From Candidatus Uhrbacteria bacterium (lineage in GTDB: Bacteria > Patescibacteriota > Patescibacteriia > UBA9934), in contig CALRHD010000007.1 of NCBI GenBank assembly GCA_943359325.1, forward strand, positions 1-39,593: DNA of 39,593 bases, read 5' to 3'. Under the pieces are notes generated by a model, which was given only the letters and a program-made list of their open reading frames with translations, made no database searches and had not been told where the DNA came from. Positions 9,992-39,593 of the stretch are shown piece after piece. The number at the start of each line of letters is the position of its first letter. Within the stretch, counting starts at the first letter, position 1. The translations under genes and the position numbers were made by a program.

Positions 9992-10450
9992 ATGTCTGAA
10001 CATGAACCAACAATTGGGGATATTCTCGCGTTATTAACTGCCCTCGGGAGCAATGTTTCGAATATCAAGGCCGAGCTCGTAAATATTCAGACTGATCTTG
10101 TAAACATCAGGGTCGAAATGGCAACGAAGGCCGATCTTGTAAACATCAGGGTCGAAATGGCAACGAAGGCCGATCTTGTAAACATCAGGGTCGAAATGGC
10201 AACGAAGGCCGATCTTGTAAACATCAGGGCCGAAATGGCAACGCAATTTGAACTCAAGAATCTGTACGAGTTCATGCAAAGCAGCCTTTCTTCTAAAGAA
10301 GATCTTCACGAGCTGGAGTCACGGATTATGACGCACATCGATGGTTTGGTGCAGGACAACAGAAAACTTGATCAGGAACGACTCGCGATGCATAATCGAC
10401 AAAATCGTTTGGAAGATCGCGTTGAACGTCTCGAACTAAAAACAGCATAA
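9992..10450 (+). CDS. coiled-coil protein with tandem 13-aa repeats
   Basis: VNIRVEMATKADL repeated; C-terminal LEDRVERLELKTA; preceded by TGATATACT. Confidence 0.75.
   Translation: MSEHEPTIGDILALLTALGSNVSNIKAELVNIQTDLVNIRVEMATKADLVNIRVEMATKADLVNIRVEMATKADLVNIRAEMATQFELKNLYEFMQSSLSSKEDLHELESRIMTHIDGLVQDNRKLDQERLAMHNRQNRLEDRVERLELKTA
10094..10249 (+). repeat. 39-bp tandem repeat, about four copies, in-frame
   Basis: Unit GATCTTGTAAACATCAGGGTCGAAATGGCAACGAAGGCC starts at 10094, 10133 and 10172 (identical); the copy at 10211 diverges at its end. Confidence 0.95.
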
Positions 10451-15699: not shown

Positions 15700-16794
15700 A
15701 TGGAGAAGCGAAGAGTTCTTGTTGGCTTGAGCGGTGGCGTTGATTCGAGTGTCAGCGCGGCGTTGTTGTTGGTGGAGGGGTATGAGGTTGTGGGGGGGTT
15801 TATGAAGAATTGGAGTGAGGAATGTGATTGGCGAGGGGAGCGGCGGGACGCGATGCAGGTCGCGGCGACATTGGGCATTCCGTTCCATACATTTGATTTT
15901 GAGAAAGAGTATCGGTCGAAGGTCTACGAATACATGATTGCGGAGTACAAGGCGGGGCGGACGCCGAATCCGGATGTGCTTTGCAATAGGTACATGAAGT
16001 TTGATTTGTTTTTACAAAAAGCCGATGAACTCGGTTGCGATTTTATTGCGACAGGACACTATGCGCGTGTTGCTCGCGATGATGCGGGAACGCACCTTTT
16101 CGCAGGTGCCGACAGCAATAAAGACCAAAGCTATTTTTTGTGCCAACTCACGCAGTCACAAATTTCCCGTGCGTTATTTCCTATCGGTGATTTGGAGAAG
16201 CCTGAGGTGCGCGAACTTGCACGGAAGTTCAATCTTCCTGTCGCAGAAAAAAAAGACAGTCAAGGGATTTGTTTTGTGGGAAAAGTCGACATGCAGAGTT
16301 TTCTTGAGGCGCGGATTACGCCGCACGACGGCAACATTGTGACGACCAGCGGGAAAATTCTTGGCACGCACAAAGGGTTTGAGTTTTACACTATTGGCCA
16401 GCGTGAGGGGTTGGGTGTTGGTGGGGGCGCGCCGCTCTATGTCGTCGAACGCCGACCCGATACAAACGAGGTTGTTGTTGCGGTTGGGGAAGATGACCCT
16501 GCGTTGTATCGTTCAGAGCTTGTTGCGACGAATATCACCGAAACAATCGACGGCAACCTGCAAAAATATTTTGGCAAAAAAATAACGGCACGGATTCGCT
16601 ACCGCCAACCGCTTGCAGTATGCAAGATGCAGGACCTCACGTCACTCGCGAGTGACGTGAGACCTGATCCTATTTTTGTTTCATCTAAAAAAATTTCAGT
16701 TTACTTCGACACGCCTCAACGCGCTATTGCTCCCGGACAGTTTATCGTTTTTTACGATGGCGACGAACTTATCGGCAGCGGTGTGATTGCGTGA
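15700..16794 (+). CDS. mnmA: tRNA-specific 2-thiouridylase MnmA
   Basis: VLVGLSGGVDSSVSAALL, TPNPDVLCNRYMKFDLFL, ATGHYARV, KDQSYFLCQL, FYTIGQREGLGVGG, RAIAPGQFIVFYDGDELIGSGVI. Confidence 0.96.
   Translation: MEKRRVLVGLSGGVDSSVSAALLLVEGYEVVGGFMKNWSEECDWRGERRDAMQVAATLGIPFHTFDFEKEYRSKVYEYMIAEYKAGRTPNPDVLCNRYMKFDLFLQKADELGCDFIATGHYARVARDDAGTHLFAGADSNKDQSYFLCQLTQSQISRALFPIGDLEKPEVRELARKFNLPVAEKKDSQGICFVGKVDMQSFLEARITPHDGNIVTTSGKILGTHKGFEFYTIGQREGLGVGGGAPLYVVERRPDTNEVVVAVGEDDPALYRSELVATNITETIDGNLQKYFGKKITARIRYRQPLAVCKMQDLTSLASDVRPDPIFVSSKKISVYFDTPQRAIAPGQFIVFYDGDELIGSGVIA
16636..16661. repeat. 26-bp perfect palindrome within mnmA
   Basis: CTCACGTCACTCGCGAGTGACGTGAG equals its own reverse complement; flanking CAGG/CCTG can extend the hairpin. 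Confidence 0.95.
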
Positions 16795-20718: not shown

Positions 20719-20761
20719 GGAGGGGTGTGGATAAGTATGTGGGCTGCTCAGGTGCCCACAT
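20719..20761. repeat. 43-bp dispersed repeat, copy 1 (DnaA-box-like site plus hairpin)
   Basis: GGAGGGGTGTGGATAAGTATGTGGGCTGCTCAGGTGCCCACAT, identical to 38824-38866. Confidence 0.97.
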
Positions 20762-20931: not shown

Positions 20932-22653
20932 ATGGAAAAAACGTGGGTGGTGGCGCCGAAGGTGGAAGGCGACATTGTGGCGCAGTTGCTAGCGAATCGT
21001 GGTGTTGCCGATGCGGATCGTGACGCTTTTTTATTGCCAAATTGGGAACAGGGGACGTACCCGCCAACGGGATTCACGCAGATGCCTCGTGCCGTTGAAC
21101 GTGTTTTTACTGCTCTCGAACAGGGTGAGCCGATCGTCATTCACGGCGATTACGATGCTGACGGCGTATGTGGAAGTTCTCTGCTTTTTGAAGCGATTCG
21201 CGACGTGCACAAAAAAATGTCCACGACTCAGTCGTGGACATCACAACTTTTTCTTTCCGTTTTCCTTCCTGACCGTGAAAAAGACGGCTACGGCGTTGCC
21301 ATGCACACTATCGACCGTATTGCCGACGAGGGTGCGAAGCTCCTTCTCACCGTTGACTGTGGGATTGCGAACGCCGACCAGCTTGATAGGGCTCATGAAC
21401 GTGGCGTCGACGTTATCGTGTGCGATCATCACCAGTTGGGCGACCGCATTCCGCCTCACGCCATTCTGCTTCATCCACTTGCGCCAAACGAAACCTACCC
21501 AAACAAAACCCTCTGCGGTACGGGTGTTGCGTTCAAATTGGCGAGCGCACTTATTCACGAAGCGCAGCGTCGTGGTGCCGCATTTCCTGTTGGCTACGAG
21601 AAGTGGCTGCTCGATTTCGTGGCGATCGCTACCGTTACCGATGTTATGCCGCTTGTGGGCGAGAATCGCGTGCTTGAACATTTTGGGCTTTCCGTATTAC
21701 GCAAAACCCGACGTCATGGTTTACGCGCCATTTTGGCGTCGGCAGGAACGGCGCCCGAGGACGTCAATACGGAAACGATAGGCTTCCGCATTGGCCCACG
21801 GCTGAATGCGGCAGGGCGTTTGTCGTCGGCGAAATTTGCGTTCGACGCACTGACGGCGTCGACAGCCGAAGAAGCGACGGTCGCCGCAGCAACACTCGAG
21901 TCGCTGAACACCGAGCGTCAAAAAGTTTTTGCACATGCCTACGACACTGCAAAGAAAATCGCCGATGCCGCACGTATTGCTCACCCTTCGCGACTCCTTG
22001 TTGTATGGCAAGACGAATGGTTGCCGGGTATTGTCGGTCTTATTGCGGGCAGGCTCGTTACCGATTATGGCGTTCCTGCGTTCGCATTCGCAAAAGTTGG
22101 CGAACATTATGTGGGGAGCGGGAGAAGTATCGGTGGGTTGCACTTGGTGCAGGCTATGGAGAGTTGTGGCGATATTTTTTTACGACGCGGAGGACATCCA
22201 CAGGCATGTGGTTTGACGATTGCAACGCAGGATTTGCTGCACACATTTCGAGAGAGCATGTCGCAATTCGCACGCACGCATTTTGGTGACGCACCACCTT
22301 CTGTCACGTTGCAGATTGACGCCGAACTTCCGCTTGAACATGCCGACTGGGCGCTTGTCGAGGCAATCGCGCGCTGTGCTCCATTTGGCGAAGGTAATCG
22401 TCCTCCGCTTTTTGTAGCGCGTAATGTCGAAGTGATCGCCGCCGAAACAATGGGTAGTACAAAGGCGCATTTGCGCATGAGTGTATTCGACGACACGCGA
22501 ACCATGCGAAAAATAATCGGCTTTGGCTTCGGCGACTTCGCGGCAACGCTCAAGATGGGCGACCACGTTGACGTCGTGTATGCTGTGGAGGTGAATGAGT
22601 GGAAAGGGAGGCGGGAATTGCAATATCGAATTGTCGACATTCGTCTATGCTAA
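20932..22653 (+). CDS. recJ: single-stranded-DNA-specific exonuclease RecJ
   Basis: IVIHGDYDADGVCGSSLLFEAIRD, LLTVDCGIANADQL, VIVCDHHQLG, GPRLNAAGRLSSAKFAFDAL, SGRSIGGLHLVQAM...RRGGHPQACGLTI. Confidence 0.95.
   Translation: MEKTWVVAPKVEGDIVAQLLANRGVADADRDAFLLPNWEQGTYPPTGFTQMPRAVERVFTALEQGEPIVIHGDYDADGVCGSSLLFEAIRDVHKKMSTTQSWTSQLFLSVFLPDREKDGYGVAMHTIDRIADEGAKLLLTVDCGIANADQLDRAHERGVDVIVCDHHQLGDRIPPHAILLHPLAPNETYPNKTLCGTGVAFKLASALIHEAQRRGAAFPVGYEKWLLDFVAIATVTDVMPLVGENRVLEHFGLSVLRKTRRHGLRAILASAGTAPEDVNTETIGFRIGPRLNAAGRLSSAKFAFDALTASTAEEATVAAATLESLNTERQKVFAHAYDTAKKIADAARIAHPSRLLVVWQDEWLPGIVGLIAGRLVTDYGVPAFAFAKVGEHYVGSGRSIGGLHLVQAMESCGDIFLRRGGHPQACGLTIATQDLLHTFRESMSQFARTHFGDAPPSVTLQIDAELPLEHADWALVEAIARCAPFGEGNRPPLFVARNVEVIAAETMGSTKAHLRMSVFDDTRTMRKIIGFGFGDFAATLKMGDHVDVVYAVEVNEWKGRRELQYRIVDIRLC
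21217..21241. repeat. 25-bp palindrome within recJ
   Basis: ATGTCCACGACT-C-AGTCGTGGACAT, 12-bp perfect arms around a single central base. Confidence 0.95.
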
Positions 22654-26425: not shown

Positions 26426-26452
26426 AGTCCCGATCTCGAGGAGATCGGGACT
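26426..26452. repeat. palindromic element, copy 1 (AGTCCCGATCTC family)
   Basis: AGTCCCGATCTC-GAG-GAGATCGGGACT between divergent arfB and ligA. Confidence 0.9.
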
Positions 26453-32086: not shown

Positions 32087-32120
32087 CAAAAACAGGGTCG
32101 ATATGAGACCCTGTTTTTTT
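32087..32120 (+). terminator. Rho-independent terminator
   Basis: AAAAACAGGGTC-GATATGA-GACCCTGTTTTTTT. Confidence 0.85.
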
Positions 32121-34693: not shown

Positions 34694-34724
34694 CAACACT
34701 ATGCACTGACAGTGCGTAGTGTTG
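34694..34724. repeat. hairpin palindrome upstream of the lipoprotein gene
   Basis: CAACACTATGCACT-GAC-AGTGCGTAGTGTTG, 14-bp arms with one non-Watson-Crick position. Confidence 0.8.
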
Positions 34725-36015: not shown

Positions 36016-36024
36016 ATAACAAGT

Positions 36025-36067
36025 AAATAACAAGTCCCGATCTCGGGGAGATCGGGACTTGTTATTT
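36025..36067. repeat. palindromic element, copy 2 (AGTCCCGATCTC family); likely bidirectional terminator
   Basis: AAATAACAAGTCCCGATCTC-GGG-GAGATCGGGACTTGTTATTT: 20-bp perfect arms, 3-nt loop, between convergent genes. Confidence 0.95.
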
Positions 36068-38744
36068 AGAACGCAAGGTTCGTATCGATATTGGTGATGG
36101 ATGATTCCTCATTTTCACGGTCGTAATCGGCAGTGCTCGTCACGTCGTCACCGAATTCGTAGTTCCCGTAGAAGGCATCGGAAATATCGTCGATTTGGCG
36201 GTTCCATGTGCTACCGTAGAGTGCGATTGCCGTTGCTTCGCTGTCGATAGGGCGAAGCACACCACCGCGAGTCACGGCATACACCGTGTTGACGGTGATG
36301 AACTTTACCATGCGTGTTCCGGGGTGGTAGGTAATGTTGCGGCCGAGGGTGAGTGACGCCATGAAGTCGTCGCTTACAACCACAACGTCGTCAAAATTTT
36401 CGTACCATGTAAAGAATACTTTCTCGTTCGGGAATGCGTGGCGCTTGCTGTCGAAGTCGGCGTAAAAGTACACAGCCTTGCATGGGTCGTTCACGTCCGC
36501 GCCTTCGCTGCATGCCAGTTTGACGAGATTTCCCGCTACGGCGTCGCCCTCCTCGTTCGTGACATCTTCTTCCTCGGCAATAATTTCATCGTCGACAATA
36601 ACTTCTTCGTCATCCGTCACCACTGCTGTGGAGAGCGTCGCTGTTGCTGTGCCGCTCGCGCTATTTCCTGCTGCATCACGACACGTCACGACCACCGTTG
36701 CGGTTGCGCCGCTACTAAATGTATAAGATTTTGACGCTGCGCCGTTTGCAATAGTCATCGTTCCTGCCGACGCACCGTTGATGTACAGCGTGCACGAACT
36801 CACCGCAATGTTGTCTGCTGCTGTTGCGCTTATTGTTCGTGCGGTGCCAAGTGTGAATGTTGTGGGGGAGGGGGTGCCGACGGTTGGGGCGGTGGTGTCG
36901 ACGACCTCTGTGCCGCTTACCGTAAATGTTGCGTCAGCGCTACTTCCGTAATTGCCTGCTTCGTCAACACAATGAGCGTAGGCATAAAAGTCGCCCGTCT
37001 CGGTAAACGTGTACGACGCCGACCATAGAATTATCATAGGGTCGAACGTTGCAGATACGGAGGCGTAGGAGGAAATTGCGGTGTGGAATCCTGCAAGGAC
37101 TTCATCGTTTTCCTGAATAATAAGTGAGCATGAATCTATGCCCGACGCATCGCTTCCCATGAACGAGAACGTCGACGCTGTTCCCGTGTCGTTGATATTT
37201 GTGGTGACTGCGCCGATGGTAGGCCCTGTGGTGTCGGCAAGAGAAACGACGAAGTCAATCGCGGCATCTGCACCACGATTTCCTGAAAAGTCGTAGCAGG
37301 AAACATTACCGTCGAACGACTCGACAGTGTCGAATGTGTACCCGCCGGTAAATGTGCCGTTTGCGTCTGGATCGGTGAGCTCGACAAGAGGATCGCTGTC
37401 ACGCTCAAAGTAACATACATCAACGCCACTGCCGGCATCTGTTGCCGTAACGCTGAAAAGTGTTGCGTGGAGGTTGTCGGCAGATGTCGGGGTGAATGAG
37501 CCGACGATCGGGCCGGTAAGGTCGACAAAAATTGTTTGTGTAACGGTTGAGTTTGCACTTCCGTACGAATCAACCGCGTAAAGCGAAATCGTGTGACTTC
37601 CTGCCGAAAGTGCCGCGGTTGTGTAGGAAAGTGCAGACGTTGCCGTCCATGCACCAGAGTCAATGCGGATGTAATAAAGAATTTCTCCACCCGCTTCGTC
37701 TGTGACCGCGCTCCATGTGACAATCTGTGCTGTTGTTCCGCTGTAGATCGTGCTGGTCGTGGTAGCGGTGCTGTTGAATAAGACGCTACTAAATTCGGTT
37801 GGTGCCATGCCATCGTAGCGACGAACAGTTCCTGCGTAGCTCACCGCAAGGCGATTTGTGCCAAAGTTTTTTACGCCGTTCCACGTCGTGTTAATCCATG
37901 TTCCTGTAGATGCAATACTCCACGTTGCACCGCCGTCGGACGTTTCGTATGCGCCGTCGTTCGAGGCAACGAGTGTCCCTGTGCTCACCCCGGTGTTCAT
38001 GCTAATCCCGTTCACGTTGTCCCATGTTCCGAGGCCGGAAATGGTGACGCCGCTCCACGTTGTGCCGTTACTTTTTCGTACCACACCGTCGGCACCGCCT
38101 GCCCAAATGCTCGACATGCTTGCCATAGAAACACAAAGCAGCGTTGCGCTGGTGCCAGAAGTCTGTGCTGCCCATGTTGTGCCGTTGTAGTATAAGACTG
38201 TTCCACTTGTACCAACGGCATACGCAGTAGTGCTGTTCCATGTGGTGACGCCGCGGAGTGATGCCGTTGTCCCCGATGTACTTGGTGTCCATGTTACACC
38301 CCAGTCTGTGGACTTGAGAATCGTGCCGCCTGAACCAACCGCGAATGTTGTGCCTATCGTCCCCATACTGACGCTATACAGCAGTGCCGTTGATCCACTC
38401 GCTGTTGCCGTCCACGTCGCACCGCTGTTGCTCGAGTAGAGAATGACACCACTGTCGCCAACTGCAACGGCATGTGCGCCTTCCATGTCGACACTATTCA
38501 ATCGCGTTGCGACGATAGGCGTTATTGTCGACCATGTGCTCCCATAGTTTGTACTGCGAATAATTTTGCCCGAGTTTCCAACAGCGAGCGCCGTACTTGA
38601 ATATGCATCGACGCCGTTGAGAATGGTTGTGTTGCCAGAAGATGGCGAGTACCAGCTTGCGGCGTGGGCAGGGGAAGAAAGAAAAAAGAGGAATGAGGAA
38701 AGCACCACGAAAAGTGTTTTGATCGCATGGTTTGCAATGCGCAT
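36066..38744 (-). CDS. secreted/surface protein: YCF48/BNR-like propeller repeats, Ig-like repeats and conserved C-terminal module
   Basis: Signal peptide; repeats such as AVAVGDSGVILYSSNSGATWTATASG; Ig-like SCTLYINGASAGTM...CRDAAGNSASG; C-terminal KRHAFPNEKVFFTWYENFDDVVVVSDDFMASLTLG. Confidence 0.85.
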   Translation of the reverse strand: MRIANHAIKTLFVVLSSFLFFLSSPAHAASWYSPSSGNTTILNGVDAYSSTALAVGNSGKIIRSTNYGSTWSTITPIVATRLNSVDMEGAHAVAVGDSGVILYSSNSGATWTATASGSTALLYSVSMGTIGTTFAVGSGGTILKSTDWGVTWTPSTSGTTASLRGVTTWNSTTAYAVGTSGTVLYYNGTTWAAQTSGTSATLLCVSMASMSSIWAGGADGVVRKSNGTTWSGVTISGLGTWDNVNGISMNTGVSTGTLVASNDGAYETSDGGATWSIASTGTWINTTWNGVKNFGTNRLAVSYAGTVRRYDGMAPTEFSSVLFNSTATTTSTIYSGTTAQIVTWSAVTDEAGGEILYYIRIDSGAWTATSALSYTTAALSAGSHTISLYAVDSYGSANSTVTQTIFVDLTGPIVGSFTPTSADNLHATLFSVTATDAGSGVDVCYFERDSDPLVELTDPDANGTFTGGYTFDTVESFDGNVSCYDFSGNRGADAAIDFVVSLADTTGPTIGAVTTNINDTGTASTFSFMGSDASGIDSCSLIIQENDEVLAGFHTAISSYASVSATFDPMIILWSASYTFTETGDFYAYAHCVDEAGNYGSSADATFTVSGTEVVDTTAPTVGTPSPTTFTLGTARTISATAADNIAVSSCTLYINGASAGTMTIANGAASKSYTFSSGATATVVVTCRDAAGNSASGTATATLSTAVVTDDEEVIVDDEIIAEEEDVTNEEGDAVAGNLVKLACSEGADVNDPCKAVYFYADFDSKRHAFPNEKVFFTWYENFDDVVVVSDDFMASLTLGRNITYHPGTRMVKFITVNTVYAVTRGGVLRPIDSEATAIALYGSTWNRQIDDISDAFYGNYEFGDDVTSTADYDRENEESSITNIDTNLAF

Positions 38745-38776: not shown

Positions 38777-38811
38777 ACACAAAGAACCCGATAGAATCGG
38801 GTTCTTTGTGT
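38777..38811. repeat. hairpin palindrome between the two surface-protein genes
   Basis: ACACAAAGAACCCGAT-AGA-ATCGGGTTCTTTGTGT, 16-bp perfect arms. Confidence 0.9.
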
Positions 38812-38823
38812 GACGTGAGGAGA

Positions 38824-38866
38824 GGAGGGGTGTGGATAAGTATGTGGGCTGCTCAGGTGCCCACAT
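38824..38866. repeat. 43-bp dispersed repeat, copy 2
   Basis: Identical to 20719-20761. Confidence 0.97.
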
Positions 38867-38868
38867 CG

Positions 38869-39593
38869 CTAAAGCACGTCGTCGATTGACGATACGCTCG
38901 CGGTGACGTCGCTCACGTTGTAGTCGCTTACTGCGTCGATAATGGTGCCGAATGAGTAGTTGCCGTAAAATGCGTCGGAAATATCGTCGACCATCGTGGT
39001 GTTCCAGTGCGTGCCGTAGAGCGACGCGGCGATTGATTCCGTCGTGATGCCGCGCAGCTCCCCGTTTTCTCCAACAGCGTATACCGTGTTGACGGTGATG
39101 AATTTCACCAATCGTGTTCCGGGGTGATAGGTGACGTTATGGCCAAGAGTGAGCGACGCCATGAAGTCATTTGTCACGACAATCACGTCGTCAAAATCGT
39201 TATACCATGTGAAGAAGACGGCTTCGTTCGGAAATGCGTGACGCTTCCCGTCGTCGCCGTAATAGTAGACGGCACGGCACGGGTCGTTGACGTCGGCGCT
39301 GCTTCCACATTGCATCTTTAGGAGCGTGCCTTCGCTTGCCGTGCTCGACGGTGGGGCGGTGGATGTCGCTGCAGCAACGGTTACCATTGCGGAACTGCCG
39401 CTTGTCGAATTTCCTGCGGCGTCAGAACAACGTGCATAAACAGGAAACGTGCCACTCGCACTGAACGTGTAGGTTTTGTGTGCCGTGCCGCCTGAAAGCG
39501 TCATGCTTCCTGCGCTCGAACCGCTCACGTACAGGGTGCAGCTCGTGACGCCAACCGTGTCGCTATACAGGGCAGAAAAAACAACGGCGATGT
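38869..39593 (-). CDS. secreted/surface protein, C-terminal part (5' end outside window), paralogous C-terminus to 36066-38744
   Basis: Frame open to the window edge; Ig-like TSCTLYVSGSSAGSM...CSDAAGNSTSG; KRHAFPNEAVFFTWYNDFDDVIVVTNDFMASLTLG. Confidence 0.85.
   Translation of the reverse strand, partial: IAVVFSALYSDTVGVTSCTLYVSGSSAGSMTLSGGTAHKTYTFSASGTFPVYARCSDAAGNSTSGSSAMVTVAAATSTAPPSSTASEGTLLKMQCGSSADVNDPCRAVYYYGDDGKRHAFPNEAVFFTWYNDFDDVIVVTNDFMASLTLGHNVTYHPGTRLVKFITVNTVYAVGENGELRGITTESIAASLYGTHWNTTMVDDISDAFYGNYSFGTIIDAVSDYNVSDVTASVSSIDDVL

Follow-up and report, generated by a model that had tools for sequence, protein, structure and literature searches.

The closest described systems are REP/RAYT systems (REPtrons; PMC2817692, PMC6006769, PMC8266576), in which, as here, short hairpins occur in tens of dispersed, mostly extragenic copies and a cognate IS200-related Y1 gene lies between two of them, with one hairpin family per transposase and compensatory changes in the stems. 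Orthologous RAYTs with different REP classes on their flanks are known (PMC3686654). REPs in frame within replication and repair genes have also been described (Di Nocera et al. 2013, PMC3733652), including a case much like that of recJ reported here, in which two Xanthomonas species differ in the REP that they carry at about one position of recB. Those intragenic REPs belong to the GTAG or CGTC superfamilies, unlike ours, and recJ does not occur in the main text of that paper. TIRtrons/TIRYT (PMC3733652) and atypical TnpA subclasses (PMC6006769) share with our system RAYT-like genes whose flanking repeats are not GTAG-REPs and are in some cases dispersed, whereas here the flanks consist of hairpins of ∼23–41 nt, perfect or nearly so, and solo copies number up to some twenty. 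Rickettsia palindromic elements (RPE-1, -4 and -6 in PMC3733652), compared by description, are likewise in-frame palindromes in unrelated protein genes, whereas ours come with an evident cognate transposase. Our host also differs from those of REP/RAYT systems, being Ca. Uhrbacteria, an assignment with which the nearest named RecJ records agree; in the literature covered, which is incomplete, we found no papers on RAYTs in CPR or on transposases in Uhrbacteria.

The window, that is, the whole stretch of 39,593 nucleotides that was analysed, contains the following features:

20932–22653, plus strand: recJ, single-stranded-DNA exonuclease of 573 aa, carrier of the hairpin (Pfam, PDB comparison, AlphaFold2 model)
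21217–21241, no strand assigned: in-frame recJ hairpin of family A, a REP-like palindrome and one of the 21 genome places with this core
20726–20760, plus strand: subfamily A2 element, intergenic, upstream of recJ; box TGTGGATAA at 20726–20734 and hairpin TGTGGGCTGCTCAGGTGCCCACA at 20738–20760
38831–38865, plus strand: second A2 element; box TGTGGATAA at 38831–38839 and hairpin at 38843–38865
16636–16661, no strand assigned: in-frame mnmA palindrome CTCACGTCACTCG/CGAGTGACGTGAG, probably a member of family C minus the inner hairpin
34694–34724, no strand assigned: intergenic hairpin CAACACTATGCACTGACAGTGCGTAGTGTTG of family B, which has 23 copies and its cognate RAYT at G000:C5:43373

On the opposite strand, TGTGGATAA reads as the classical DnaA box TTATCCACA, and we refer to it, by sequence, as DnaA-box-like.

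The recJ palindrome reads ATGTCCACGACT C AGTCGTGGACAT, with 12-bp arms that are 100% complementary around a 1-nt loop, and encodes MSTTQSWTS, as stated in the preliminary description of this DNA; these are residues 96–104 of RecJ. Shuffling synonymous codons in the 22.9 kb of the window's larger plus-strand genes gave an expectation of 0.015 perfect palindromes with arms of at least 12 and a loop of at most 1; two were observed, those in recJ and mnmA, so that such palindromes do not occur in these coding sequences at chance frequency. The 573-aa ORF has the DHH, DHHA1 and RecJ_OB domains (Pfam), and comparison with RecJ structures in the PDB (8y30, 5f54) shows ∼12 extra residues at the palindrome, in agreement with the lengthening proposed earlier; at the mnmA palindrome, PDB MnmA has ∼15 residues fewer. 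That perfect self-complementarity far above chance coincides with a length-variable loop of a conserved enzyme, in mnmA as well as in recJ, had thus been described rightly. The two palindromes had further been regarded as unlike in sequence and alike only in a property. They do differ, but this reading is incomplete, because each is a member of a multi-copy family, A for recJ and probably C for mnmA, and each family flanks its own RAYT transposase gene in the genome. The mnmA copy is probably a shortened family C element, judging from its resemblance to a double hairpin of that family of which only the outer arms are left.

Whether the recJ palindrome is an insertion depends on the relatives with which it is compared. 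In all four species of the genus with sequence, the loop is ∼20–22 aa long, against ∼14 aa in the majority of the family's other genera, and a clear DNA palindrome is present within the genus only in this species and one sister species. The loop is therefore longer than in most of the family but not specifically in this species, and, as sibling loops are equally long, we dropped the idea of a clean insertion in recJ with respect to its closest relatives. An ancient insertion conserved as protein without DNA palindromy, the other explanation raised at the outset, holds in part: the long loop is genus-wide, but neither its residues nor the palindrome sequence is conserved. In an AlphaFold2 model of RecJ (pLDDT 86; 87–90 in the blocks covering residues 96–104), these residues form the end of helix 76–99 and the loop leading to strand 108–111. 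This position in the model suggests that the loop lies at the protein surface, where the hairpin would be near-neutral for RecJ.

When up to 3 mismatches are allowed, the family A core, the 23-mer TGTCCACGACTnAGTCGTGGACA, occurs 21 times in the 790,734-base genome (reversed-pattern control, 0); recJ holds one of the three copies that match the pattern exactly. None was found in the genomes searched from the same genus (4) and the same family (18), and the sole other match among the 288 genomes of that search, own included, was one 3-mismatch place in a distant genome of the same class. The exact palindrome had no match in collections of genome contigs and viral contigs, in which the own genome is perhaps not included. 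The two A2 elements in the window (20738 and 38843) define a sister subfamily, TGTGGGCACCTGAGCAGCCCACA, which has its tail in common with A and its stem bases swapped compensatorily. Stem covariation is seen in families A and B; in B, 4 pairs are changed on both sides, more than in shuffles or in slid controls. Families B and C have 23 and 8 copies in this genome (reversed control, 0), and those inspected are intergenic or at gene ends, none being clearly inside a gene except the mnmA case. Among other features of the window, two palindromes (36024–36068 and 26426–26452) have AGTCCCGATCTC...GAGATCGGGACT in common, one with 21-bp arms, and make up another small repeat family that resembles either terminators or REPs; strong hairpins with 16-bp and 12-bp arms (38777–38811 and 32088–32118) are possibly terminators, and a small protein at 9992–10450 has tandem LVNIRVEMATKAD repeats. 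Two neighbouring surface-type proteins (36066–38744 and 38869–39591, minus strand) have a common C-terminal domain, KRHAFPNE.VFFTWY, and are likely a tandem duplication.

Assignment by ORF inspection placed the non-coding copies of family A between genes or at gene ends. In-frame palindromes occur in recJ, rsmA, comF, an aspartoacylase-like gene (twice) and mnmA, all but the last from family A. By comparison with the nearest relatives, the genus siblings, the rsmA copy adds 9 aa and one aspartoacylase-like copy 6–7 aa, so that both are clean insertions; the copies in recJ and comF and the second aspartoacylase-like copy bring no net gain over these siblings, and a simple insertion cannot be claimed for them. 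Coding copies can persist because the hairpin is stop-free in five of the six reading frames. The box matches at 5/9 positions in recJ, 4/9 in rsmA, and 7/9 and 6/9 in the aspartoacylase-like gene; as four of the five coding copies are without a good TGTGGATAA box, in genes the hairpin alone persists.

The genome (G000; G001–G004 are sister species of the same genus) encodes six IS200-like Y1 proteins, all of which pass the Pfam Y1_Tnp cut-off in a genome search and keep the NHxH (HUH) motif and the RYIxxN[PA] tyrosine motif, with NA replacing NP in two. Five of the genes are small and RAYT-type, each with its own palindrome family on both sides (A on contig C2, B on C5, C on C14, E on C19 and F on C3). 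The family A RAYT, near 7.1 kb on C2 and encoded on the minus strand at about 6.87–7.63 kb, lies between two family A hairpins, and its stop codon is supplied by the downstream one. With the NCBIfam model NF047646 (REP_Tyr_transpos, cut-off 80 bits), the five hairpin-flanked RAYTs score 27–52 bits, below the cut-off, and the sixth protein scores 86.7; the latter has an HTH-like C-terminus and no hairpins and resembles subclass 2.1 of PMC6006769. The long RAYT L074 (G000:C5:21191) has an HTH-like C-terminus without flanking hairpins, with similar proteins at L077, L080, L085 and L089; its counterparts in the four sister species have TGTGGATAA and a conserved stretch upstream. A leader recurs upstream of RAYTs (L024, L076, L082–L084 and L088), comprising a CTCCC...GGGGA hairpin and then a T-rich stretch, and its sequence is suggestive of attenuation of the transposase.

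Together, these data suggest that the recJ palindrome is a solo REP-like element, a 23–25-nt hairpin most likely spread in trans by a RAYT (Y1/HUH) transposase, to which we give a probability of roughly 0.88. The presumed transposase is the C2 RAYT with family A hairpins on both flanks. It would recognize the hairpin in single-stranded form, cut next to it and insert it elsewhere, preferably at a position 3′ to 5′-TGTGGATAA(G/C)T. Most copies remain between genes, and a coding copy can persist in a surface loop if the net length change is a multiple of three. Against this reading stand the poor boxes at the recJ, rsmA and aspartoacylase-like copies, the missing net gain in length at recJ, comF and the second aspartoacylase-like copy, and the lack of a GTAG head and of an inverted pair in family A.

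Orthologous sites with different hairpins bear on how the recJ copy arrived. At recJ, family A in G000 and another dispersed family, G, in G002 (CCCCGAGGCCTAGCCTAGGCCAGGCCTCG; 5 places in G002, 1 in G003, control 0) lie within a few nucleotides of each other with no net length change among genus members. Six orthologous intergenic junctions (gene names are our reading of the protein sequences) also have different hairpins in different species:

lexA/metK junction: G000, G001 and G002
upstream of xseA: G000, G001 and G003
upstream of tmk: G001, G002 and G003
tRNA ligase/scpA junction: G001, G002 and G003
prfB junction: G001 and G003
upstream of the MSNEIVLDIETQ protein: G000, G002 and G003

At several of these, the flank and TGTGGATAAGT are identical up to the hairpin. 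Some hairpins at one site are maybe distant variants and others are unrelated in sequence; upstream of tmk, those of G001 and G003 have their outer arms in common, and the G003 site (L300 near 1497) holds a 56-bp palindrome, symmetric over its full length and with TGTGGATAA/TTATCCACA at the two ends. These sites and the recJ pair would fit a variant, rather than the opposite, of the transposition reading, in which the recJ loop of the genus ancestor already held a REP that each species overwrote with its own current hairpin, by the transposase or by gene conversion, instead of receiving a fresh insertion. New REP variants might partially replace the originals after an 'orthoswitch' (PMC3686654). 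However, the recJ loops of G003 and G004 are equally long without a clear palindrome remnant, and no intermediate was found; we regard exchange as plausible but somewhat short of an even chance.

Directly 5′ of the hairpin, TGTGGATAA is present at 8/9 matches or better in 15 of the 21 family A copies, followed by (G/C)TAT in family A and by GTGG or GTAG in some other families of the genus. Across the five species, a strong hairpin starts within 12 nt 3′ of 42 of the 136 exact TGTGGATAA sites, compared with ∼1 in dinucleotide shuffles. These 42 hairpins represent many unrelated palindrome families, although a few are hairpins of another kind, for example paired boxes or probable terminators. 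In the G000 stretches, most of the association is on one side (11 sites 3′ and 3 sites 5′). A conserved TGTGGATAA cluster lies between pnp-like and lspA-like genes (L267 near 2047–2118, L268 near 2357–2428). The identity of TGTGGATAA clusters as oriC (G000:C4 near 24.5 kb, G001:C2 near 6.3 kb) was considered and is unsupported, the neighbours being pnp/lspA-like with no dnaA seen. We tentatively propose, and think somewhat less probable than its converse, that fixed TGTGGATAA sites are docking sites where species-specific RAYTs install and later swap hairpins, the recJ codon stretch included. Alternatively, the box may not be a target site but belong to the mobile element itself, or serve the RAYT as a promoter element under DnaA control, which would explain its constant distance from the hairpin in those 15 copies and its position beside the upstream hairpin of several RAYTs. 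We consider this less likely than not, as the same box adjoins many unrelated families, stays with its flank at orthologous sites while the hairpin changes, and is missing at the downstream hairpin of the family A RAYT and, in good form, at most of the coding copies.

A role for the host, with the palindrome conserved as a regulator dyad, transcription terminator or DNA uptake sequence, is very improbable. Perfect dyad symmetry, the many intergenic copies and the association with a DnaA-box-like sequence would be expected of such a signal, but the palindrome has no T-run, lies within several unrelated coding sequences and is tied to transposase genes bearing the same palindrome, while orthologous sites bear different ones; its absence from sister species, that is, its species specificity, largely refutes such a role. 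A local origin, in which template switching perfected a recJ quasi-palindrome with no link to mobile DNA, is barely credible given the same sequence at 20 other genome places, except as the cause of the perfect arms, since hairpin-templated correction could explain why the recJ copy is among only three perfect ones.

Read from sequence, the anatomy appears to be that of a REP/RAYT system that departs from strict membership in the GTAG foot, the inverted orientation of the flanks and the curated RAYT score. Unlike in REP/RAYT systems, family A has no GTAG/GTGG foot, and where the flanking hairpins are asymmetric (RAYTs A and F of this genome, L087 and L090), the two are direct repeats instead of an inverted pair. 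The elements are singlets here, not REPIN pairs, and a 9-bp DnaA-box-like head is common to many families. New with respect to known REPs are thus this head, the directly repeated flanking hairpins and the different hairpins at fixed sites.

These findings address two open questions, how REPs choose their sites and how RAYT and hairpin change jointly. Target choice and hairpin exchange become directly testable within the genus, as a single 0.79-Mb genome has five pairs of RAYT and hairpin, several sister species differ in the hairpins that they carry at identical sites, and the 9-bp head is common. Hairpins in other repair genes elsewhere were noted earlier (PMC3733652). In this very reduced genome, selfish hairpins are tolerated inside conserved enzymes, a DNA-repair exonuclease included, and if the docking-site reading is true, the spread of RAYT/REP elements would be tied to DnaA or the replication fork.
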